A DNA stretch of 60,080 nucleotides from a virus. This document shows, piece after piece, positions 24,870 through 58,841 of this stretch (the stretch's first letter is position 1; every line of letters begins with the position of its first letter). A program made the position numbers and the translations under genes. The notes under the pieces are model-generated. The model made no database searches and was not told the DNA's origin. It saw only the letters and a program-made list of their open reading frames with translations. The stretch lies in IMG/VR virus record IMGVR_UViG_3300047481_000152, positions 1 through 60,080 of that record. The stretch is one strand, 5' to 3'.

Positions 24870-24918
24870 AGGCGTATAACAAATGGCGAATTCTGATAAG
24901 GACATCCTTATAACGCCT
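24870..24918 (+). promoter_or_regulatory. Start-codon-enclosing hairpin
   Basis: AGGCGTATAA (24870-24879) can pair with TTATAACGCCT (24908-24918), leaving one bulged A. The loop contains the ATG at 24883, and the 5' arm overlaps the AAGG ribosome-binding bases. This could lower translation initiation. It is a visual prediction only. Confidence 0.35.
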
Positions 24919-26823
24919 AATATTGGTCAGGCGGCACTACCAGAAATTAAATTTGTTGGAACTGGAAACAGTCCTCGTTATATACGAGTAAATAATGATA
25001 ATAGCCTTGCGTTCCTGAACAACTCTGGAACGGAAAGATTTTCTATTAATGAAGATTTAGTAAGAACCAGTTTATCTGCCAGTGGTAACTATAGAGTTAG
25101 AAACAGTTCTGGAACAACATTATTTAATGTAACTAATAGTACAAATGCTATTGAAATAGGTGGTGCTGGAACTGGTATCGCAATGGTTGGTGGAACAACT
25201 ACAGCAACCTCTCCAAAACTAGCAATTGTCCAAGCAAGTGCTGGTTCAAGATATTCTCTACAAATTCAAACCACTGGCGGTATTGCTGATGGACAGTATG
25301 ATGGTATTGGATTTGTTCAAGGTGCTGCTGGTGCAACACCTTTGGGTGGTATTCGTTGTGAATTTAGAAACAGTGGTAGTCCAGATTTTGGATGGTATAC
25401 AAGGAGTGGCGGAAGCACTGAGAGTATAAAATTAAAATTATGGAACAGTGGTAACTTATCAATTGGAACTGCAGATCAAACAGAATATACTAGATTAAGT
25501 GTTCTAGGAGGTTCTGGTATTACAATTAGACCAGATACTTCATCTGCAAATAATCGTCATATCTATTTTAGACAAGCAGCTAATAATAATGGATTTGTCA
25601 TAAATCAAGATGATGCTTCTGTTGGTATGCTCTTCTTCAGAGCAATCAATAATGGATCAGAAACAAATCCTCTATTAACATTAGATAGACCAAATCAGAG
25701 AGTTGGTGTTGGAAATTTTAGCACAAGTTCTAGACCAGGATTTACACTAGATGTAAATGGAGATATTAATACTACTGGTCAATTTAGAAGAAATGGAGTA
25801 ATTTTTAATCCACTTCCCGCGCAAAGTGCATCAACAATTGGTGCTGCATTAAGATCAGATGGAACTAATGCATTCTGGGATATTGGCGGTGGTGGAAGCG
25901 GCGGAGGAACATCTGCTCTTCCATACGCCGCAGAAGACAGATATAGAGTTGGTTTCCAAATCACTCGCGGTTATGCAATGGCGGGATATAAAGATAGTAC
26001 ATCATATAAAAATGTTTGTTCTATCAATCATGCCAATAATACTTTAACAAATCATGGAGATCTTTTAACAAATGGTCAAGGTTATTGTGCTGGAGCACAA
26101 AATCTTTCCATGTTTGCATATGTTATGATCGCCGTAAATGGTGTTGGTGGAACTGGATCAACATGTTCTAAAATTAATATGAACACCAATGCAAATGCTG
26201 GTACTACCTCCATTAATAATAATAGATCTGCAACAAGTATAATGAGAAGAGATTTCAGATATGCATATGTATATGGAGGTGGAGATTCTAGACCAGATAG
26301 ATTTAATTTAAGTAATGATACTTCAGCGTTAGCTCCAAATGGCAATCCATCTGGAGATGAAAACAATCCAGCTGGAGGATATGGTGCTACTTATGGATGG
26401 TCTAAGAAGAATGGTGGGTATGCATATTCTTGGGCAAATGAGACATATGCTGCTTGGCCAAATAATCCTGGAACTGATGGATCCAATAAAACTATGAACG
26501 CTAGACATGGTTATAATTATTGGAATACAGGAGGAGGATATAGGACATCAGCAAATTTCTCCAAGAGAAGTTCATTTACTGGATCTGAAGCTACTCAAGT
26601 TGGTAAGTTTGAATGTGGAGAAGAAACATTCCACACTGGTATGAATAGAGGTTATATGTGTGGTATGTATGATGGAGCACAGAAAAACACTGGAGCAGTT
26701 TTAAATTATGCTGCTGAAACATTTACAGCAGATGCAAATATAAACAGAGTAGGACCACCTGGATCGGCATCTGGAGCTGGTGCTGAATTTGGCACGGTTC
26801 TAGCAGGTTACGACGGAGTATAA
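24883..26823 (+). CDS. Fibre-like virion structural protein
   Basis: A 646-residue protein. The N-terminus (MANSDKDILITPNIGQ) and shaft-like segments (YRVRNSSGTTLFNV, SRPGFTLDVNGDINTTGQF) are typical of phage fibre proteins. A glycine hinge (GGGGSGGGTS) follows near residue 340. The C-terminal half has ITRGYAMAGYKDSTSYKNV, YCAGAQNLSMFAYV and RGYMCGMYDGAQKN, a WD/kelch-like beta pattern seen in cyanophage virion proteins. Several cysteines and aromatic residues in this domain suit a receptor-binding head. It is probably one of the host-contact fibres. Expressed from the exact late promoter upstream. Confidence 0.7.
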   Translation: MANSDKDILITPNIGQAALPEIKFVGTGNSPRYIRVNNDNSLAFLNNSGTERFSINEDLVRTSLSASGNYRVRNSSGTTLFNVTNSTNAIEIGGAGTGIAMVGGTTTATSPKLAIVQASAGSRYSLQIQTTGGIADGQYDGIGFVQGAAGATPLGGIRCEFRNSGSPDFGWYTRSGGSTESIKLKLWNSGNLSIGTADQTEYTRLSVLGGSGITIRPDTSSANNRHIYFRQAANNNGFVINQDDASVGMLFFRAINNGSETNPLLTLDRPNQRVGVGNFSTSSRPGFTLDVNGDINTTGQFRRNGVIFNPLPAQSASTIGAALRSDGTNAFWDIGGGGSGGGTSALPYAAEDRYRVGFQITRGYAMAGYKDSTSYKNVCSINHANNTLTNHGDLLTNGQGYCAGAQNLSMFAYVMIAVNGVGGTGSTCSKINMNTNANAGTTSINNNRSATSIMRRDFRYAYVYGGGDSRPDRFNLSNDTSALAPNGNPSGDENNPAGGYGATYGWSKKNGGYAYSWANETYAAWPNNPGTDGSNKTMNARHGYNYWNTGGGYRTSANFSKRSSFTGSEATQVGKFECGEETFHTGMNRGYMCGMYDGAQKNTGAVLNYAAETFTADANINRVGPPGSASGAGAEFGTVLAGYDGV

Positions 26824-26825
26824 AA

Positions 26826-27578
26826 ATGAGAAAGTATTATCTAACAAATTCAAAAGAAGTAGCAAAATTATTTTCGTTTAAACCTCACGGCGAAATTTTA
26901 AATTGGCAGTTTTTCTCGGTAAATCAAATCGATAGTGAAAGAGTGAAAGAATTAGCTCCTCGTCATATTGAAGTAGAGAAAGACATTGCTGTCTGGGGAA
27001 TGAGATCTTGGGGAGAAACCAGAGATGAAGTAACTGTATATAATACAGACATTGAAATTGTAAGTGAATTTGAGGGATTTGAAATCATTGCCACTGATCC
27101 AGAAAATTCACAAGGAAAAGTAAAAATTCCATTCACAGATAAAAGAAAAGATCTAGTAATATCGGCAATGAAATTAGTTGCCAAGGTTATGATTGAAGAA
27201 GAGTATGATAATAAATATAGAAGATATCTTTCAAAAACTTCATTTTTAGAGAGAGAATGCTGGAAGTATCAACTCGAAGATGTATCGTTTAGAGATACCC
27301 TCGCAGAGTTAAAAGGAAAAGAAAAAGAAGAATTTGAAAATGTTGTAATTGCAAATAGTATTAGTTATGAAGACTATGTAAAAGGTTTATACATAGAGTG
27401 TCAGGCATTAAAGCAAGAATTTTACAATTGCGAAAATATTTCGGAATTGAGTATTCTATTTGAAGATAAATTTAATCTTCCAATGCAATCACATCTTGCT
27501 ATCAAACTTGGTAGAGAGATTGTTAATGCCGATGAACCAAATACAAGAACAAATGTTGGAATTGGTTTGAATTTTTAA
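26826..27578 (+). CDS. Unrecognised protein, possible fibre assembly factor
   Basis: A 250-residue soluble protein that starts two bases after the fibre gene and so is probably co-translated with it. The N-terminal half is mixed alpha/beta (KPHGEILNWQFFSVNQID, IAVWGMRSWGETRDEV). The C-terminal half is helical and charged, with ERECWKYQLEDVSFRDTL, which faintly recalls the W..YR..L pattern of tail fibre assembly proteins. There is no signal peptide, membrane segment or catalytic motif. Position directly after a fibre gene suits a chaperone, but this is inference. Confidence 0.6.
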   Translation: MRKYYLTNSKEVAKLFSFKPHGEILNWQFFSVNQIDSERVKELAPRHIEVEKDIAVWGMRSWGETRDEVTVYNTDIEIVSEFEGFEIIATDPENSQGKVKIPFTDKRKDLVISAMKLVAKVMIEEEYDNKYRRYLSKTSFLERECWKYQLEDVSFRDTLAELKGKEKEEFENVVIANSISYEDYVKGLYIECQALKQEFYNCENISELSILFEDKFNLPMQSHLAIKLGREIVNADEPNTRTNVGIGLNF

Positions 27579-27595: not shown

Positions 27596-28393
27596 ATGTC
27601 AGATGAAAAAAAATTGGATGTAGAAACTATAAAAAATATTGCTCGTAGATGGGCGTCAGGAATGTCTGATGAGCAATGTGATATGTATGTTATTCATTCT
27701 CAAGTTACAAAAGATAGACAAGTAAAACAGTGTCTATTGGAAATCGAAAATAGATGCCACAATCTAGCAAAACTAGATATTGAAAAGAGAAGACATGATA
27801 TAAACTATAAAAAACTTCAAGAAAAATTGGGCACAGAAAAAGATCCATATGAAAAAGATCTTCTTCAACTTGAATTGGATAGCATGGATTTAGATTATGA
27901 TGTTTTTAATAGAAGAAAAATTACTCAAGAAAAAGAAATTCAATCATTTTTTAAATGGTTAATTGAACAAGGATTTACAGCAGAAGAATTGGAGAAAAGA
28001 TTGGAATATGATCCAGAAGAAGAAAGAAAATACTGGATTGCCAGAATGGGCAAACAAGCAGCTATGGATGTTGTATTCCAAGGAAGGATTGGAACTGGCA
28101 ATCTAGACTCTATTGCTATGATGAAGGAGCAGGATCAGCAGGCAATTTTAGAAATTGCAATGCAGTATTCTGCATTATATAACGTTAGCGTCAATAAAAT
28201 TCAACAGAAACTTGTTCCATATATTCAAGCATTAGAAGAAAGTTCTACAGGAGCATTACCAACTTTTCATGGAATTGATGAAAACTTAGAAATAGGTTTG
28301 TTGAGTGAATTAAAAACTATTAAAGGTGAATTGAATGGAACCAAATCTTCATCCCCAAGTCTTCAGCTTACCTATAAACCCCAAGCTTCCTGA
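27596..28393 (+). CDS. Unrecognised helical protein
   Basis: A 265-residue, highly charged, mostly helical protein (MSDEKKLDVETIKNIARRWA; long Glu/Lys-rich central helices; FFKWLIEQGFTAEELEKRLE; QQAILEIAMQYSALYNVSV). It has no recognised domain. Its 3' end overlaps the next gene by 59 bases, and the last 20 residues (SSSPSLQLTYKPQAS) look unstructured, as if the tail were shaped by the overlapping reading frame. It may act with the preceding gene near the fibres, but no function can be assigned. Confidence 0.6.
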   Translation: MSDEKKLDVETIKNIARRWASGMSDEQCDMYVIHSQVTKDRQVKQCLLEIENRCHNLAKLDIEKRRHDINYKKLQEKLGTEKDPYEKDLLQLELDSMDLDYDVFNRRKITQEKEIQSFFKWLIEQGFTAEELEKRLEYDPEEERKYWIARMGKQAAMDVVFQGRIGTGNLDSIAMMKEQDQQAILEIAMQYSALYNVSVNKIQQKLVPYIQALEESSTGALPTFHGIDENLEIGLLSELKTIKGELNGTKSSSPSLQLTYKPQAS

Positions 28394-30038
28394 AGATTTT
28401 GTAGATAATATCTTTATTCCATTTTTACAAAAGCATAAAGATTACATTTTTGATTTATATTTTACTTGCAGAATGCCTCCATTTGAGCAGGATGCTATGG
28501 GTGATATTTTCAACAATCCAAAAGATACCACTTTCAGTGCTTTATACATTTCAAATAAAACTGGAATACCACTATCTGCAACATTTAATAATATTTTTGT
28601 GAGACCAGATCAAGAAAATTTAGATCTATTCATAAAGAATTTTAGATATGTTTATGAGAGAGGTGTAAGAATTGCTACAATTCCACACACTTCATGGTTA
28701 CTTACTGGACAAATACAAAAAGAGTTTCCAAATCTCTTCATAAAGAATACAATTCTGAGAGAAGTTACTAGACCCAACGAAATTGTTTCTTTAGCAAAAG
28801 CAGGATTTCATTATATCAATCTTGATAGAGATTTAATGCGCGATAGAGATCAATTACTTGCTATTAAAGAAGCAAAAGATTATTGCTCTTCTATTGGCAA
28901 ACCAGTTAAATTGTCTTTATTAGCAAATGAAAATTGTTGGGGTGGATGTCCCATCATGCCAGAGCATTATCATTATAACAATACAAGAAAATTAAACAAT
29001 CCAGAATATTTTGGAGATGCTATAAGTAGAATTTCATGTTCCTCTTGGGATATATTGGATTCTTCATCCTCGTTAAAAGCAGCGATATTACCACCATGGA
29101 AAGAAGATTGGATTGAATTTTTTAATTTGGGAATTGATGTATTTAAAATGCATGGCAGAGAGACTGCTACCAGATTAAAAGAAAGTATGGACATCATTGA
29201 AAACTGGGCAAATAATAACGAATATTTGTTTCCAAATTTTGATGAATTTATTCATGATATACACATAGATGATAAACCTATTGATATTTGGAGAGAAAAA
29301 ATTAAAACATGTAAATTTGATTGTTGGAAATGCAACTATTGTGAATCTGTAATCAAATCACGAGTTAGAAAATATGAAAAAGATCACCATCCTTATGTTT
29401 ATCATGTTTTAAAATCTTTCGAAAAATCTGGTAGAAATGAATCTAGTTTTAATCCAGAAAAATATGACATTGAAGGATTAACTTCTGATCGAGTAAGACA
29501 TTTTTTAAATAATCTTTGTTCAATGGATGGAGCAAAATATTTGGAAATAGGATCTTATGCTGGAAGTACATTTTTTGCTGCTACCATGAATAACAATGTT
29601 CAAGCTTATGCAGTCGATAATTATGTTTGCAATGTTTCTCCTGCTAGATTGGATGTTAAATGGAATGGATATTCAAAACCCAAAAGAGACTTTTTAAAAA
29701 ATAGATCAAAATATGAAATAGGAAAATTAATTGATAAGCATGTAAATGCCATCAACCTAATGGATTTGGATAATACAAAAGTCAATATCATTTTTTATGA
29801 TGCTAGTCATGAATATAAAGATCAAAAAAAGGCATTATCTACTCTCCTTCCATTAGCAGAAGATACCTTTATTTTGGTTATTGATGACATTAATTTCAAA
29901 GATGTGTTAGAATCTGCAAAAGAATTTATATCCGATAATAATTTGACTTCATTATATGAAAAACAATTATTCACCACGGTCTTTGAAGATTCTAATAGTT
30001 GGTGGAATGGATTATTTGTAGCAGTTTTACGAAAATGA
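28335..30038 (+). CDS. U32-like TIM-barrel / class I methyltransferase fusion
   Basis: A 567-residue protein with AAAGGTGA (28322-28329) before the ATG. Residues about 40-345 resemble the U32 (collagenase-like/RlhA/UbiU) TIM-barrel: IPLSATFNN, HYINLDRDLMRD, LANENCWGGCPIMPEH, GIDVFKMHGR, then a Cys cluster CKFDCWKCNYC. Cysteines 201, 205, 235, 326, 330, 333 and 336 could hold a 4Fe-4S cluster. Residues about 398-567 are a Methyltransf_24-like SAM domain: KYLEIGSYAGSTFF (SAM loop), FYDASHEYKDQKKAL, FILVIDDIN. Known U32 enzymes hydroxylate rRNA, tRNA U34 or ubiquinone precursors. Here a hydroxylation-plus-methylation step is inferred, not shown. Confidence 0.6.
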   Translation: MEPNLHPQVFSLPINPKLPEDFVDNIFIPFLQKHKDYIFDLYFTCRMPPFEQDAMGDIFNNPKDTTFSALYISNKTGIPLSATFNNIFVRPDQENLDLFIKNFRYVYERGVRIATIPHTSWLLTGQIQKEFPNLFIKNTILREVTRPNEIVSLAKAGFHYINLDRDLMRDRDQLLAIKEAKDYCSSIGKPVKLSLLANENCWGGCPIMPEHYHYNNTRKLNNPEYFGDAISRISCSSWDILDSSSSLKAAILPPWKEDWIEFFNLGIDVFKMHGRETATRLKESMDIIENWANNNEYLFPNFDEFIHDIHIDDKPIDIWREKIKTCKFDCWKCNYCESVIKSRVRKYEKDHHPYVYHVLKSFEKSGRNESSFNPEKYDIEGLTSDRVRHFLNNLCSMDGAKYLEIGSYAGSTFFAATMNNNVQAYAVDNYVCNVSPARLDVKWNGYSKPKRDFLKNRSKYEIGKLIDKHVNAINLMDLDNTKVNIIFYDASHEYKDQKKALSTLLPLAEDTFILVIDDINFKDVLESAKEFISDNNLTSLYEKQLFTTVFEDSNSWWNGLFVAVLRK

Positions 30039-30685
30039 AATTATATGATTTATTTCCAAATCCAATATTTGGAATTGATTATCCAGAGCACGATAAATTA
30101 AAAAAAATTATTCTTCAAATTATGGAAGAGTGCAAAGATGATTTTGAATTTAATGGTCAATCATCTAATTTATCACACTTAAAAAATAAATTGAACGAAT
30201 CAATTTTGCATGAAGAGCAATTAAAAGAATTTAAAGACTGGGTTGAAGAAACATGCTCTGATTATGTTACAGATTGCTTGGGTTATAATCTCCAAGAAAA
30301 AATGATGGTTACAGATAGTTGGTTAAATAAATGCGACAAAGGAGGATCACAACATCCTCATTATCATTCAAACTCATATGTTTCTGGAACATATTATGTA
30401 AATTTTCAAGATGGTCATGCTCCTTTAATGTTTAACAAAAGATCTGCATTATTATTTCCAAATCATGCATCGATAGTTTTACCAGAGAATGATAATTTTA
30501 TAACCAAGTACAATACAGATTCTGCTGTATATCCAGAGGAAGGTGAGTTATACCTTTGGCAATCTCAAATGACGCATAGTGTTCCAGAAAATGGACTTGA
30601 TAATCGAATTAGTTTGTCTATGAATTTTATGCCAACTGTTGTAAGCAATACAAGATATGGATTTAGAGTAGAGTATTTATCATGA
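30035..30685 (+). CDS. 2-oxoglutarate/Fe(II)-dependent oxygenase, copy 1
   Basis: A 216-residue protein; ATG 30035 overlaps the upstream stop as ATGA, which fixes the start against an in-frame upstream ATG at 29999. It matches the TIGR02466/2OG-FeII_Oxy_5 type of putative oxygenase: WLNKCDKGGSQHPHYHSNSY (residues 96-115), SGTYYVNF, EGELYLWQSQMTHSVPEN, RISLSMNF. The likely iron ligands are in the H109-x-H111-x-N113 segment plus H181, and R191 would bind the 2-oxoglutarate carboxylate. Substrate unknown. It is translationally coupled to the fusion protein upstream and the Fe-S protein downstream. Confidence 0.8.
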   Translation: MKLYDLFPNPIFGIDYPEHDKLKKIILQIMEECKDDFEFNGQSSNLSHLKNKLNESILHEEQLKEFKDWVEETCSDYVTDCLGYNLQEKMMVTDSWLNKCDKGGSQHPHYHSNSYVSGTYYVNFQDGHAPLMFNKRSALLFPNHASIVLPENDNFITKYNTDSAVYPEEGELYLWQSQMTHSVPENGLDNRISLSMNFMPTVVSNTRYGFRVEYLS

Positions 30686-31467
30686 TAGATTTTAATGATA
30701 TATTGAAACTTTTTCCCCAGGATGTGTGGGATATTGGATTGTTGAAGGGCGTTGAGTATAAAAAAGTATTGAATTCTCCAGTAAAGGCAGCATGTCATTT
30801 TAAAGGTGAAATGCTGACCAACAGATTGCAGGCTCCATATCAGTCAAGTAATACTCTGGTATTTGCTAGAATGTCTGAACATGCTGCTGACTATTCTTTA
30901 TATGAAGAAGCAACAAATTACTTATCCGAATACATAAAAGAAAATAAATGTGTTCAGGTATATTTAAATTTTAAAGAGGCGGCTATACAATCTGGATTGG
31001 GAGTGAGAGCAAAAAATTCATTGATATATAATAAAAAATTTGGATTTCAATGTAAGATATGTGCCTTTACATTTTTAGAAGATCTGATTAATGCCCCAGA
31101 ACCACATATAAACAATGGACAGTTAGATCTTTGTGATGGATGTAATGATTGCATAAAAAATTGTCCAGCTAATGCAATCCATGAAGATTTTATTGATGGC
31201 AATGCATGTGACACTTTTGTTGGTGTTGGTAATAGTTCCGAACAGTTATCAATTAAATGGTTCTGGTATGAATTGGTAAAACCAGATATATCAAGAGAAG
31301 TTGTAGAATCTTGGAATACACTAGAAGATTTTCAAAATATTGTATGGACAAATGGATATGAAATGACACCAAATGGTTTGATGAAAGATGGTGAAGTAAT
31401 TCCAATGCCTCTTTGTAGAGTGTGTCAGCAACAACCAAAATGTAGTAAAGTTCCTATAATGTTATGA
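30682..31467 (+). CDS. QueG-like double iron-sulfur protein
   Basis: A 261-residue protein; ATGA overlaps on both sides. A ferredoxin motif C151-x2-C154-x2-C157-x3-C161-P (CDGCNDCIKNCPANAI) is followed by C176 and a second group C245-x2-C248-x5-C254, enough for two 4Fe-4S clusters. Upstream of it, AAIQSGLGVRAKNSLIYNKK resembles the AGLGxxGKNxLLI segment of epoxyqueuosine reductase QueG and reductive dehalogenases. It is shorter than bacterial QueG (about 370 residues), and the cobalamin-binding part is not convincingly present. A redox partner for the neighbouring oxygenases or U32-like protein, or a true reductase, are both possible. Confidence 0.6.
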   Translation: MIDFNDILKLFPQDVWDIGLLKGVEYKKVLNSPVKAACHFKGEMLTNRLQAPYQSSNTLVFARMSEHAADYSLYEEATNYLSEYIKENKCVQVYLNFKEAAIQSGLGVRAKNSLIYNKKFGFQCKICAFTFLEDLINAPEPHINNGQLDLCDGCNDCIKNCPANAIHEDFIDGNACDTFVGVGNSSEQLSIKWFWYELVKPDISREVVESWNTLEDFQNIVWTNGYEMTPNGLMKDGEVIPMPLCRVCQQQPKCSKVPIML

Positions 31468-32084
31468 TTTTAAATGTCGGACCATGGGAAATTAATCCAT
31501 GTTTTTCCATGCCAGTATCATCTAAAAACATAGATCCAAGCATTAGTTTTCTTCTTAAAACTATGTGCAAACGTGTTGAATGGATTGAAGATAATACATA
31601 TACTGGAGTAAATGGATTTTATTCTAAAGATAGAAATGTTTTAGATTGTGATCAAGAAATTAAAAATGGATTTGTTTCTATATGCAAGGATTATATTGTT
31701 AATGCTCTTTGTTATGATACAGAGATACAGATAACAACTTCTTGGTTTACAAAAACTATAAAGGGAGGACATTGTGTTGATCACACACACTGCAATTCTT
31801 GGTTTAGTGCAGTTGTCTATTTTGGTGAATATGATGAAAATTCTTCGCCACTAGTATTTTCCACAAATCCTCCACAAATAATGGTTGGATCAAAAAATTC
31901 AAATTTCTTAAACTCTTATAATTTGACAATAGAACCAATAAAGAATAAAATAATTATATTTCCTAGTAATCTGCGGCATAAAGTTATGCCGCACAAATCA
32001 GATATTCCAAGATATTCACTGTCTTTTAATATCATGCCACTAGGATTAGTTGGAGAAGGAGATTCTTCTTATCAATATAAATAA
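31464..32084 (+). CDS. 2-oxoglutarate/Fe(II)-dependent oxygenase, copy 2
   Basis: A 206-residue protein; the start overlaps the upstream stop (ATGA). It has the same core as the oxygenase at 30035: SWFTKTIKGGHCVDHTHCNS (residues 93-112), then KIIIFPSNLRHKVMPH and PRYSLSFNIMP. Likely ligands are H107-x-H109-x-N111 and H172, with R183 for 2-oxoglutarate. The overall sequence is divergent from copy 1 outside the motifs, so the pair is either an old duplication or two independent gains. It ends the redox cassette; its stop codon overlaps a late promoter. Confidence 0.75.
   Translation: MILNVGPWEINPCFSMPVSSKNIDPSISFLLKTMCKRVEWIEDNTYTGVNGFYSKDRNVLDCDQEIKNGFVSICKDYIVNALCYDTEIQITTSWFTKTIKGGHCVDHTHCNSWFSAVVYFGEYDENSSPLVFSTNPPQIMVGSKNSNFLNSYNLTIEPIKNKIIIFPSNLRHKVMPHKSDIPRYSLSFNIMPLGLVGEGDSSYQYK
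32076..32083 (+). promoter_or_regulatory. Late promoter TATAAATA
   Basis: An exact TATAAATA that overlaps the stop codon of the second oxygenase and lies 29 bases before the ATG at 32112. Confidence 0.7.
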
Positions 32085-32111
32085 CATTACACACTATCAT
32101 TTGTGATAACC

Positions 32112-32294
32112 ATGGATACCGCAACACTTAAAAAGAATTTTGAAGAGCAGCTTGCTACTGCAGACAAGCAGATTGCTGAACTAGAAACAAATCTTGTTAA
32201 AGCAAGAGAATACAAACTCAAGCTTGAAGGTGGTCTAGAAACACTAGGACTTCTGGAACAAGAAGAAGCACCTGCCGAAGAAGCAGCAGAATAA
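32112..32294 (+). CDS. Small acidic coiled-coil protein
   Basis: A 60-residue protein started at ATG 32112 (GTG 32103 is an unneeded extension). Heptads run from LKKNFEEQLATADKQIAELE to KAREYKLKLEGGLETL, then an acidic tail QEEAPAEEAAE. It is bracketed by a late promoter and a strong terminator, so it can be expressed alone. Its place immediately before the neck genes and its small acidic coiled-coil form suggest a virion or assembly accessory protein; no T4 counterpart is recognised. Confidence 0.7.
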   Translation: MDTATLKKNFEEQLATADKQIAELETNLVKAREYKLKLEGGLETLGLLEQEEAPAEEAAE

Positions 32295-32300
32295 TCCCAG

Positions 32301-32336
32301 ATCCCTTCTTACTAAATATGTAAGAAGGGATTTTTT
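32301..32336 (+). terminator. Strong terminator hairpin with embedded late promoter
   Basis: ATCCCTTCTTA (32301-32311) pairs perfectly with TAAGAAGGGAT (32321-32331) around a nine-base loop, followed by TTTTTT. It is a textbook intrinsic terminator for the small gene upstream. The loop carries a late promoter (32312-32318), and the 3' arm carries the only purine-rich ribosome-binding sequence before gene 13. Confidence 0.85.
32312..32318 (+). promoter_or_regulatory. Late promoter CTAAATA in terminator loop
   Basis: CTAAATA occupies the loop of the terminator and lies 26 bases before the ATG of gene 13, the same distance as at other late genes here. Transcription would begin near 32324, so the new RNA would not contain the 5' arm of the hairpin. 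Confidence 0.55.
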
Positions 32337-32343
32337 GTGTCTA

Positions 32344-33144
32344 ATGGCATCTCCAAATAGTAGAGCCTCTCTTATCACATATTGTAAAAGACAACTGGGC
32401 GAACCAGTTCTTCAAATCAATATTGATGACGAGCAGGTAAGCAACGTTATTGATGATACTATTCAGTTCTTCCAAGAGAACTGCTATAACGGTATGGAGC
32501 GTTGCTATCTACGCCATGAAATGAATGCTGCCGATAAAGCAAGATTAGAAGGAAAAGTTACAACCACGAATGGAACTACAAACTGGGAAGAAGCAACAAA
32601 TTATATTCCAATTCCAGATCATGTCGTGGGTGTTAGCAGAGTGTTTGGAGTGGTTGGAAACAGCATTCGCAGTAATCTATTTGGTATCGAATATCAGATC
32701 TTCCTCAATGATCTCTACGCTTTCGGATCACTTGATATTCTCAACTACTTTATGACAAAGCAGTATCTAGAAACTCTGGATATGGTTTTGAATAATGGAT
32801 CATTCCAGCAGTTCAGATACACGATGCGTCGTGATCGTCTGTATCTAGATATTGACAAGGACTTCCTACAAGAAGGTCAGTGGCTATTGATTGAGGCACA
32901 CCGTCTCGTCAATCCAAATGATGCCACTGAAATGTATAATGATATGTTTGTAAAGCGTTATGCTACTGCTCTCATGAAGAAGCAGTGGGGACAAAACCTT
33001 ATCAAGTATAACAATGTTCAACTGCCTGGCGGTATCTCACTGAATGGCAGACAGTTATATGAAGATGCGCTTGGTGAAATTGAAAAGATAGAAAGTGAAG
33101 TCCTCAGTAAGTATGCAGAACCACCTATGGATATGATCGGATAA
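32344..33144 (+). CDS. gp13: Neck protein gp13
   Basis: A 266-residue protein; ATG 32344 is chosen over an in-frame TTG at 32335 because the conserved product begins MASPNSRASLITYCKRQLGE. IDDEQVSNVIDDTIQFFQEN, LDIDKDFLQEGQWLLIE and FVKRYATALMKKQWGQNL are typical of gp13 of T4-like phages. gp13 with gp14 forms the neck that seals the packaged head and provides the tail joining surface. It is followed one base later by gene 14, the same order as T4. Confidence 0.9.
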   Translation: MASPNSRASLITYCKRQLGEPVLQINIDDEQVSNVIDDTIQFFQENCYNGMERCYLRHEMNAADKARLEGKVTTTNGTTNWEEATNYIPIPDHVVGVSRVFGVVGNSIRSNLFGIEYQIFLNDLYAFGSLDILNYFMTKQYLETLDMVLNNGSFQQFRYTMRRDRLYLDIDKDFLQEGQWLLIEAHRLVNPNDATEMYNDMFVKRYATALMKKQWGQNLIKYNNVQLPGGISLNGRQLYEDALGEIEKIESEVLSKYAEPPMDMIG

Positions 33145-56628: not shown

Positions 56629-56652
56629 GGGTGCCTCCAAGGGGGTGCCCCT
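56627..56652 (+). other. GC-rich hairpin after gene 46
   Basis: AGGGGTGCC (56627-56635) can pair with GGTGCCCCT (56644-56652), with two G-T wobbles and an eight-base loop. It overlaps the gp46 stop. No U-tract; a terminator-like or processing element. Confidence 0.4.
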
Positions 56653-56684
56653 CTTGCTATGCTTATCACATCAGCAAAAAACCG

Positions 56685-58841
56685 ATGACCCGCCAAGAAA
56701 TCAAGGGCAACCTTGCCCGCCTGCTCGCTACTGAAAACCTCGTTGTAGAGCACCGTAACTGCCCTACAGCGTCCTTCAACGTTGAGACCCGTGTGCTGAC
56801 CCTCCCAAACTGGGACCGTGCTTCCAGCATCGTATATGATATGCTGGTGGGTCATGAGGTGGGACACGCTCTCTTCACCCCCAACGAGGATTGGACTGCC
56901 AAGGCAGAATGCCCTAAAGACTTCATCAACGTGATTGAGGATGCTCGTATTGAGAAGCTGATGAAGCGTAAGTATCCTGGTCTGCGTAAATCTTTTGCTG
57001 GTGGTTATCAAGAACTGAATGCCCAGGATTTCTTTGATATTGCTGGTGATGATCTGAATACTTATAGCTTGATTGACCGTATTAATCTTCACTTCAAGAT
57101 TGGTGCTGGTGCCTTCATTCCTTTCTCTGTTGATGAGCAAGTGTTTGTTGCTCGTACCGAAGAAGCAGAGAACTTTGATGAAGTGCTCCAGATTGCTGTA
57201 GATGTTTATAACTTCAGCAAGCAAGAGAAAGAACAAGAGAAAGTAGATGCCAACATTGATGTTGAGCAAACCACTCAAGGTGGGGGTGGTATGACCCAAT
57301 CTGGGGGTGATAATGAAACCGAGGGTGATGCTGATGATGACCAACCCTCCAGCAACTCTGATCAGCAGGGTCAGCAAACTGGTGGTGCTACTCAACCGAA
57401 AGGTGAGGATGCTGATGATGCTGGTGATGAAGGTGACGATGAGAGTTCCCAAACTCAAGATGCCTTTGATCGTGCTGCTGAGCGTCTGACCAATACCTTC
57501 TCTGGTGGCAACACTTACTATGTTGAGATCCCCGACAATGTGGTTCTTGATGAGTATGTTGCTGACTGGACCGAAGTTCATGACTGGATTGATGAGCAGC
57601 GTGAAGGTCTCAATGATATTCTGCTTAAGACTGCTTACGACGGTGTTGATGCTGACTATCAATCTTTCCGCAAGCAATCTCAGAAAGAAGTGAATTACCT
57701 TGTGAAGGAGTTTGAATGCCGTAAGTCTGCCGATGCTTATGCTCGTGCTGGTGTTTCCAAGACTGGTGTTCTAGACACTACCAAGCTTCATACTTATCTT
57801 TACAACGAAGATATTTTCAAAAAGGTTACGATCCTTCCTGATGGCAAGAACCATGGTCTGCTGTTTCTGCTTGACTGGTCTGGTTCCATGCAGCGTGAGA
57901 TCTTTGCTACTGTCAAACAACTTTTGAACCTTACTGCCTTCTGTAAGAAAGTTCAGATCCCGTTTGAGGTGTATGCCTTTACCAACGATTACTTCCCTGT
58001 CCGTCGTATCAAGCAAGGCAAAGATCAATACATCTCCAATGATGAATACTTTGCTGCCAACGGTTGCCACGAAAACAAAATCTATCTCCAGAAAGGTATG
58101 TTCCATCTGGTAAATTTTGTTTCTTCTCGTTCTAACGGTAAGGACTATGAGCGTATGTGTCGTAATCTTTTCCGAGAAGCATACACCTACACTTACCACA
58201 CTTACTACAGTGCTACTACTGGTCTTGGTTTGTCTGGCACTCCTCTGAACGAGGGTATCATCATGCTCAACTACATCATCCCGCAGTTCAAGAAACAGAA
58301 CGATCTTCAGAAAGTGAATGTCTGTATTCTCTCTGATGGTGAAGCTTGCCAGACTTCCTATGGTCGCAAACTGTATGATGAATACCGTGATCATTCTTAT
58401 GTTCGCCCCCGCCGTTTGGACAACGGCACTTGCCTGCGAGATCGTCAGACTGGTCGTGTCTATAAAGCATTTGAAGGATGGGATGGTAATACCAATACCT
58501 TCATTCAGCAACTGCGTGACCGTAACCCTGGCGTGAATGTGTTGGGTTTCCGTATTCTCTCTGGTTCCCAACTTTCTAACTTTGTCTGCTCGTATGCCGA
58601 CGTTGCTTATTACAGCGAAGTCCAGAAGCAGTGGAAGAAAGAAAAGTCTGCCATCATTCCTTGCCCTAAAGCATTCACTGCTTTGTATGCGATCTCTAAC
58701 AATTCTCTTGATGAAACTTCTGCCTTTGATGTAGAGAGTGGAGCGAAAAAAGGCGATATCACTAAAGCCTTCAAGAAGATGCTGAATTCCAAATCCACTA
58801 ATAAGAAACTTCTGAACTCTTTTGTCGCCTATGTTGCTTGA
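56685..58841 (+). CDS. CobT-like VWA protein with HEXXH motif
   Basis: A 718-residue protein; ATG 56685 preferred to an in-frame GTG at 56631 that lies in a hairpin. HEVGH (57-61) is a zinc-protease-like motif. A long acidic Gly/Gln/Asp linker (residues about 190-270) is followed by a von Willebrand A domain with LLDWSGSMQ (MIDAS, D397-x-S399-x-S401) and CILSDGEA. This is the layout of CobT-like/phage 'peptidase' proteins that pair with an AAA+ (CobS/MoxR-like) ATPase, in cobalt chelation or protein remodelling. Its GC-richer, more biased codon use differs from its neighbours. Confidence 0.75.
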   Translation: MTRQEIKGNLARLLATENLVVEHRNCPTASFNVETRVLTLPNWDRASSIVYDMLVGHEVGHALFTPNEDWTAKAECPKDFINVIEDARIEKLMKRKYPGLRKSFAGGYQELNAQDFFDIAGDDLNTYSLIDRINLHFKIGAGAFIPFSVDEQVFVARTEEAENFDEVLQIAVDVYNFSKQEKEQEKVDANIDVEQTTQGGGGMTQSGGDNETEGDADDDQPSSNSDQQGQQTGGATQPKGEDADDAGDEGDDESSQTQDAFDRAAERLTNTFSGGNTYYVEIPDNVVLDEYVADWTEVHDWIDEQREGLNDILLKTAYDGVDADYQSFRKQSQKEVNYLVKEFECRKSADAYARAGVSKTGVLDTTKLHTYLYNEDIFKKVTILPDGKNHGLLFLLDWSGSMQREIFATVKQLLNLTAFCKKVQIPFEVYAFTNDYFPVRRIKQGKDQYISNDEYFAANGCHENKIYLQKGMFHLVNFVSSRSNGKDYERMCRNLFREAYTYTYHTYYSATTGLGLSGTPLNEGIIMLNYIIPQFKKQNDLQKVNVCILSDGEACQTSYGRKLYDEYRDHSYVRPRRLDNGTCLRDRQTGRVYKAFEGWDGNTNTFIQQLRDRNPGVNVLGFRILSGSQLSNFVCSYADVAYYSEVQKQWKKEKSAIIPCPKAFTALYAISNNSLDETSAFDVESGAKKGDITKAFKKMLNSKSTNKKLLNSFVAYVA

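Follow-up and report, generated by a model that had tools for sequence, protein, structure and literature searches.

A four-gene oxidative-enzyme cassette of T4-like cyanomyoviruses is linked to the distal tail-fiber module and possibly acts on its product

In Bacillus subtilis, a single operon encodes the U32 proteins TrhP1 and TrhP2 together with TrmR, a catechol O-methyltransferase (COMT)-like methyltransferase; E162, C170 and C177 of TrhP are the residues of an E-x7-C-x6-C signature that is essential in both TrhP and RlhA (PMC6599085). In cyanophages, many 2-oxoglutarate (2OG)-Fe(II) oxygenases and some halogenases are already known (PMC3037559, PMC2984593, PMC10452541); one role proposed in the literature is to modulate 2-oxoglutarate and nitrogen signaling. 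Here we analyzed four intact, co-directional genes at positions 28335-32084 of a 60,080-nucleotide viral DNA (IMG/VR record IMGVR_UViG_3300047481_000152; hereafter the window, meaning the whole stretch). They encode a predicted barrel joined to an O-methyltransferase-like domain (open reading frame 1, ORF1), two 2OG-Fe(II) oxygenases (ORF2 and ORF4) and a predicted Fe-S protein related to QueG and RdhA (ORF3). An original prediction, made from the DNA letters alone, described a hydroxylating and methylating redox cassette that perhaps remodels host tRNA wobble bases. Its gene content, coupling and general idea hold, but the tRNA-wobble reading is not supported. Instead, we favor, with a probability of roughly 0.4, a late oxidative-tailoring operon that is linked to the distal tail-fiber module and acts on a product of that module.

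Linkage to the module is carried by gC, the last of three genes (gA, gB and gC) on the tail-fiber side of the cassette. ORF1 and gC were at most five genes apart in 42 of the 45 loci with enough upstream sequence, and six or seven genes apart in the remaining three. P-SSM4 and P-RSM1 both keep the order gA-gB-gC-ORF1, although gene 13 lay outside the region fetched for them, and in S-ShM2 about 6 kb separate gC and ORF1. This linkage suggests that the target is a product of the fiber module. Moreover, the gene sets that fill the slot between gC/ORF1 and gD/gene 13 co-vary much more strongly with gC than with gene 13: across 31 de-duplicated loci, the more two loci differed in gC, the more their slot sets differed (Mantel r 0.54, P 0.001), and the corresponding values were 0.46 for ORF1, 0.40 for gB and 0.17 for gp13, the product of gene 13, though gp13 adjoins the slot on its other side. 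The partial Mantel value for gC given gp13 was 0.55, and the same pattern was obtained in the subset of 23 loci in which gp14 is present as well (gC 0.49, gp13 0.03, gp14 0.23). The tie to gC and the co-variation favor what had been offered originally as an alternative, that fiber proteins or a metabolite are modified.

According to the reading that we favor, the four genes would form a co-translated operon of T4-like cyanomyoviruses, presumably expressed late. ORF1 would be the constant enzyme, whose barrel probably hydroxylates the substrate, perhaps by U32-type chemistry, and whose attached O-methyltransferase-like domain probably adds a methyl group to the hydroxyl so formed. ORF2 and ORF4 would hydroxylate, and ORF3 would act as a compact reductase of the Fe-S/cobalamin superfamily that reverses or redirects the oxidized group through an epoxide-, halide- or sulfur-type reduction. 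The genes beside ORF1 would then serve as exchangeable sets of oxidative enzymes, and the likeliest target would be a protein or glycan from the gA/gB/gC module, with the presumed effect of altering adhesin chemistry. A broader version, speculative and rather unlikely, is that a phage family of cobalamin-dependent reductases related to QueG and reductive dehalogenases, together with phage 2OG oxygenases and the hydroxylase-methyltransferase, builds unusual modified residues on virion proteins, namely those of the tail fiber, in exchangeable forms that are linked to adhesin type.

The coordinates of the genes are listed in Table 1. As originally described, each of the four genes overlaps the next by exactly four bases, and the cassette lies between fiber genes and gene 13, from which one small gene, gD, separates it. 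The start of ORF2 is the ATG within the first of these overlaps, whereas the mechanical ORF opens at a TTG farther upstream. The 59-base overlap between gC and ORF1 is real, because the invariant FSLPxNPK residues of ORF1 fall inside it. The arrangement is not due to chance: the order U32MT-OG1-QueGL-OG2 (ORF1 to ORF4) is shared by six viral lineages once redundancy is removed (window/L006, L007/L008, L009/L010, L011/L012, L015 and L019/L020), with most of the short overlaps kept, and U32MT-OG1-QueGL without OG2 is present in L014 and L018. The four genes are under strong purifying selection, with ratios of nonsynonymous to synonymous substitution rates (dN/dS) of 0.05-0.19 against L007 and L009, relatives at 73-86% protein identity, and 0.08-0.46 against the more diverged L011, the top value being that of OG2. 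A near-identical contig of 76 kb (99.99%) was also found.

Table 1. Genes and overlaps of the cassette and its flanks in the window
Feature	Positions	Strand	Description
gA	24883..26823	+	646-amino-acid (aa) fiber-like protein; phrog_1417, T4-GC 351; in the linked tail-fiber-side module
gB	26826..27578	+	phrog_1604, T4-GC 352; unknown function
gC	27596..28393	+	phrog_1409, T4-GC 353; unknown function; constant upstream partner of ORF1
ORF1 (U32MT)	28335..30038	+	567 aa; T4-GC 354, phrog_1458; predicted barrel plus O-methyltransferase-like domain
ATGA stop/start overlap ORF1-ORF2	30035..30038	+	4 bases
ORF2 (OG1)	30035..30685	+	216 aa; PF13759 / TIGR02466 2OG-Fe(II) oxygenase
ATGA stop/start overlap ORF2-ORF3	30682..30685	+	4 bases
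ORF3 (QueGL)	30682..31467	+	261 aa; predicted compact QueG/RdhA/MMACHC superfamily member, two predicted [4Fe-4S] clusters
ATGA stop/start overlap ORF3-ORF4	31464..31467	+	4 bases
ORF4 (OG2)	31464..32084	+	206 aa; PF13759 2OG-Fe(II) oxygenase; diverged paralog of ORF2
gD	32103..32294	+	63-aa phrog_580 protein; closes the exchangeable slot ahead of gene 13
gene 13 (gp13)	32335..33144	+	head-tail adaptor/neck protein; right-hand flank, linkage control

ORF1 is a fusion in which the two halves fared differently. Its C-terminal domain is class I O-methyltransferase-like according to both profile and model: residues 403-519 match Methyltransf_24 (E 3e-7; 31.7 bits against a Pfam cut-off of 26.3), the same match is found in 37 of 39 family members, and the domain model has fold matches to O-methyltransferases among other enzymes. 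The N-terminal part (about residues 10-345) forms eight alternating strand/helix units in the AlphaFold2 (AF2) model, a predicted (beta/alpha)8 barrel with invariant cysteines at positions 201, 205, 235, 326, 330, 333 and 336. The eight predicted beta/alpha repeats, with a conserved Cys pair directly after the seventh predicted strand, are what ORF1 would share with the U32 hydroxylases (TrhP, RlhA and UbiU/UbiV). A relaxed alignment to U32 proteins was collinear (46-311 on 45-306), and TFNN and FKMHGR of ORF1 fell on TFNT and LKIEGR of U32. The fold and these two motifs suggest a U32-type hydroxylase as a working identity for the barrel.

Profile tests did not support the U32 part of the originally described U32-like/methyltransferase fusion. 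PF01136 (Peptidase U32) matched none of the 39 family members at E<=10 and nothing in the P-SSM4 and P-HM2 genomes. Searches with Pfam, NCBIfam, phmmer and profiles against PDB sequences gave no significant U32 support, nor did a hidden Markov model (HMM) test with shuffled controls, and comparison by hhalign with U32 sequences of two phyla returned probabilities of 0.6-1.2% (P about 0.04-0.09). Structure prediction, which had been proposed as a check, yielded the eight beta/alpha units in ORF1 and a QueG/RdhA fold in ORF3, but no U32 entry was among the 50 fold matches listed for ORF1, a list dominated by the methyltransferase domain. Unlike U32 proteins, ORF1 has no E-x7-C-x6-C: the corresponding place holds E199-N-C201-x3-C205, a C-x3-C, and there is an extra CxxxCxxCxxC. 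Membership of ORF1 in the U32 family was dropped on the non-significant profile tests and the absent E/Cys signature, leaving a suggestion at the level of the fold.

These results bear directly on modification of tRNA or rRNA, in which ORF1 would act like TrhP plus TrmR, making and then methylating a hydroxypyrimidine, and ORF3 would act on the wobble base as QueG does. The B. subtilis operon provides the two activities that would be combined in ORF1, with its barrel fused to an O-methyltransferase-like domain (PMC6599085), and the resemblance of the methyltransferase model to O-methyltransferases is in keeping with it. However, ORF1 fails every U32 profile test and lacks the TrhP/RlhA spacing, ORF3 has none of the QueG motifs and scores far under the QueG cut-off (see below), the window contains no tRNA genes, ORF1 and ORF3 do not generally co-occur, and linkage to tail fibers would be unexpected. 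We consider RNA modification improbable, and wobble remodeling as originally put forward, which relied on a U32 and QueG pair that proved not to be fixed, is not supported.

ORF3 is, judging from its predicted fold, a distinct, compact and apparently virus-restricted member of the cobalamin-dependent QueG/RdhA/MMACHC superfamily; binding of cobalamin is likewise suggested by the fold. Its top NCBIfam families were reductive dehalogenase TIGR02486 (E 1.7e-9, 38 bits against a cut-off of 160) and QueG TIGR00276 (1.5e-8, 34 bits against a cut-off of 200), its relatives scored 30-40 bits, and the family search placed it as a protein of the two-cluster 4Fe-4S type. In the AF2 model (predicted local distance difference test, pLDDT, 78), all 36 PDB fold matches with E<=1e-3 were QueG or RdhA (TMq about 0.45), so that only this superfamily, with reductive dehalogenases (RdhA/PceA/NpRdhA) named alongside QueG, appeared below that value. 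MMACHC, the human B12-processing protein, was the next match, above E 1e-3, and the viral structure library held no fold match below E 0.4. Aligned by hhalign with retrieved QueG sequences, ORF3 gave a probability of 97% locally and 96% globally over residues 1-261, compared with <1% for negative controls.

Cysteines C151, C154, C157, C161, C176, C245, C248 and C254 of ORF3 align with the eight of QueG, and all 22 relatives examined keep eight cysteines in the QueG order (CxxCxxCxxxCP - C - CxxC...C). A GxGxxxKN loop is common to ORF3 and QueG; in the ORF3 family it reads GxGxRAKNS and is kept in 22 of 22 members with small variations, such as GLGTVARNS in L029. In contrast, the last Cys group is CxxCx5C in ORF3 and CxxCxxxC(P) in QueG. 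Most retrieved cellular QueG sequences carry GxDYH and DxGP (Asp134 in B. subtilis QueG), whereas in the ORF3 family DYS, NYS, EYS or NYV replaces DYH, the position of the catalytic Asp varies (D/N/E) and DxGP is absent. At 261 aa, ORF3 is also much shorter than QueG (roughly 340-370 aa), and the family appears to be restricted to viruses. Thus, the QueG-like Fe-S protein of the original prediction survives as a superfamily fold with eight cysteines, but true QueG function was rejected on the family cut-offs and the missing motifs.

ORF1 and ORF3 differ in distribution. ORF1 was present in 123 isolate cyanophage records, all without ORF3, and in at least 530 IMG/VR loci; it is a widespread cyanophage gene, and in the cassette once described as inserted, the genes downstream of ORF1 are the only ones that resemble an exchangeable insert. 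ORF3 had no relatives in 50,697 phage records, and 24 IMG/VR loci were recovered by one profile scan and 31 by another whose query was more divergent; some of these relatives lack ORF1. The co-occurrence survey thus recovered the four-gene order in six lineages but often found ORF1 and ORF3 apart. A scan of 84,980 GTDB species genomes, based on short peptide patterns that are conserved, recovered no relative of ORF3; for ORF1, the only hits were two short contigs of metagenome-assembled genomes (MAGs). These carry gA, gB, gC and ORF1 (L111, PBPE01000072.1, filed under a Dehalococcoidia MAG) and gB-gC-ORF1 (L112, DANB01000001.1, filed under a Euryarchaeota MAG), and are probably misbinned phage DNA. 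A cellular origin was rejected on these scans. Plasmids had no ORF1 relative and, for ORF3, only weak QueG-like matches.

Outside the cassette, ORF3 relatives adjoin 2OG genes in L200, L201 and L204 and stand alone in further lineages. A direct 2OG neighbor was present in about four of nine lineages (binomial P about 0.01, or 0.04 with stricter counting, where both the lineage grouping and the 10% expectation are estimates). In L017 (4776-6792; IMGVR_UViG_3300044958_000179), a 2OG oxygenase, a Mom-family gene (PF25680) and an ORF3 relative form an overlapping operon amid structural genes, possibly a DNA- or protein-modification set. In L199 (2340-4653), a DruA-family gene (PF14236) lies immediately upstream of the ORF3 relative, and the clamp-loader A subunit comes next, in a replication region. 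In L016, a ferredoxin-dependent bilin reductase (PF05996) is encoded just downstream of the ORF3 relative.

The loci in L017 and L199 raise hypermodification of phage DNA bases, as in other modified-base phages. A cyanophage precedent exists in S-B43, whose DNA hypermodification depends on an S-adenosylmethionine (SAM) analog (PMC12783734). Yet Mom occurred in one of the 28 related records searched, several of which are fragments, and was not in the window, so that a Mom link as a general rule was rejected; the cassette is located among virion genes and follows gC, and none of its four proteins matched a family that binds DNA or modifies nucleotides. DNA modification is, in our estimate, the least probable of the explanations considered.

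ORF2 and ORF4 are ordinary members of the cyanophage 2OG-Fe(II) oxygenases (PF13759, PF13640; phrog_81), many of which occur per genome (PMC3037559). Each scored 59.9 bits against a PF13759 cut-off of 27 (E about 3e-16), bearing out the original call of two oxygenases, and their PDB sequence relatives are uncharacterized proteins. Unlike other cyanophage 2OG genes, they flank ORF3 in an operon, apparently co-translated, downstream of ORF1. ORF4 also matched phrog_274 (1.9e-6), whose cyanophage genes are annotated 'DNA endonuclease V' (NC_006884.2 denV); given their weak likeness to 2OG oxygenases, that annotation may be wrong.

The slot is filled by recurring sets, of which OG1-QueGL-OG2 is that of the window. 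Alternatives are six or seven different 2OG-type genes (L093), 2OG+Trp_halogenase+2OG+DUF6445 (L041), shorter 2OG sets, or nothing at all. In L093 (8671-12527), seven consecutive small genes follow ORF1, six of them matching Pfam 2OG-Fe(II) oxygenase families, as an unusual tandem array of diverged oxygenases. The isolates syn9 and Sf-CH11 have one or more halogenases and 2OG genes among tail-fiber genes in a comparable region. Flavin halogenases (tryptophan halogenase-like, in syn9/Syn10 and others) can fill the same slot beside 2OG genes, as in L041, syn9 and Sf-CH11; the window cassette differs in having the reductase-type ORF3 and no halogenase. In S-CAM4 (L004:10445-11347), the interval from ORF1 to gene 13 encodes, next to DUF6445 and 2OG genes, a protein that matches Fibrinogen_C and, weakly, the C-terminal part of fibrillar collagen; it is a candidate substrate.

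Such contents would also suit tailoring of a small molecule, in which the operon acts by oxidation, methylation and reduction on a metabolite of the host or the phage (a pigment, lipid, signaling compound or antimicrobial) and occupies the late region only for expression. Tailoring of this kind, as in natural-product clusters, typically employs 2OG oxygenases, O-methyltransferase-like domains, flavin halogenases and QueG/RdhA-type reductases, and a cyanophage halogenase is reportedly active on diverse small substrates (Gkotsi 2019). On the other hand, no scaffold-making enzyme was seen in the slot, and neither the gC linkage nor the tail-side co-variation is expected of a stand-alone metabolite pathway; we regard this explanation as unlikely, though it is the strongest of the competitors.

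The slot could instead be a recombination site that gathers unrelated auxiliary genes, serving 2OG consumption, host nitrogen signaling or Fe-S electron transfer with no common pathway. The abundance of 2OG genes across cyanophage genomes, their proposed role in modulating 2-oxoglutarate (PMC3037559) and a slot content so variable that it can be empty are what neutral cargo would produce. Recurrent fixed sets, four-base overlaps, strong purifying selection and the position of ORF3 beside 2OG genes in several lineages, at the rough binomial P given above, are not, and we judge cargo without a shared function quite unlikely, slightly ahead of RNA modification.

Several points weigh against our preferred reading, an operon acting on a product of the tail-fiber module. 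The barrel of ORF1 is without U32 profile support, and the loci used for co-variation came from the 80 that match ORF1 of the window most closely, a biased sample. Block recombination ending near gene 13 may produce co-variation with gC without biochemical coupling. The chemistry of ORF3 is not tied to tail fibers, since its relatives occur directly after nrdB in L016 (L016:1-3994) and L026 (L026:2548-6768), in replication regions and beside Mom- and DruA-like genes. Finally, 2OG genes are scattered across nine isolate cyanophage genomes; they were ruled out as a marker unique to the slot, which is a concentration of such genes and not their exclusive site.

Two things are new here: an ORF3 family that is apparently restricted to viruses, and a modular organization linked to the tail. 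Literature searches confined to open-licence papers, and thus weak evidence, found no publication on a phage QueG/RdhA-type protein, on this modular slot or on hydroxylation of tail fibers by phage oxygenases. Through ORF3, a cobalamin-dependent enzyme superfamily would gain viral members, and the conserved barrel-methyltransferase tied to gC, with its co-varying oxidative sets, offers a testable alternative to the signaling proposal, namely that a product of the adhesin module is modified.

Elsewhere in the window, tail fibers, genes 13, 14 and 15, terminase, sheath, tube, portal, prohead protease, major head protein and late sigma factor are recognizable, and the stretch is the structural-gene part of a T4-like cyanomyovirus genome, from a virus of marine cyanobacteria. 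Relatives of gA bear the annotation 'sericin 1 precursor-like', and positions 56631-58841 encode a 736-aa phrog_459 'peptidase' that is conserved in cyanophages.

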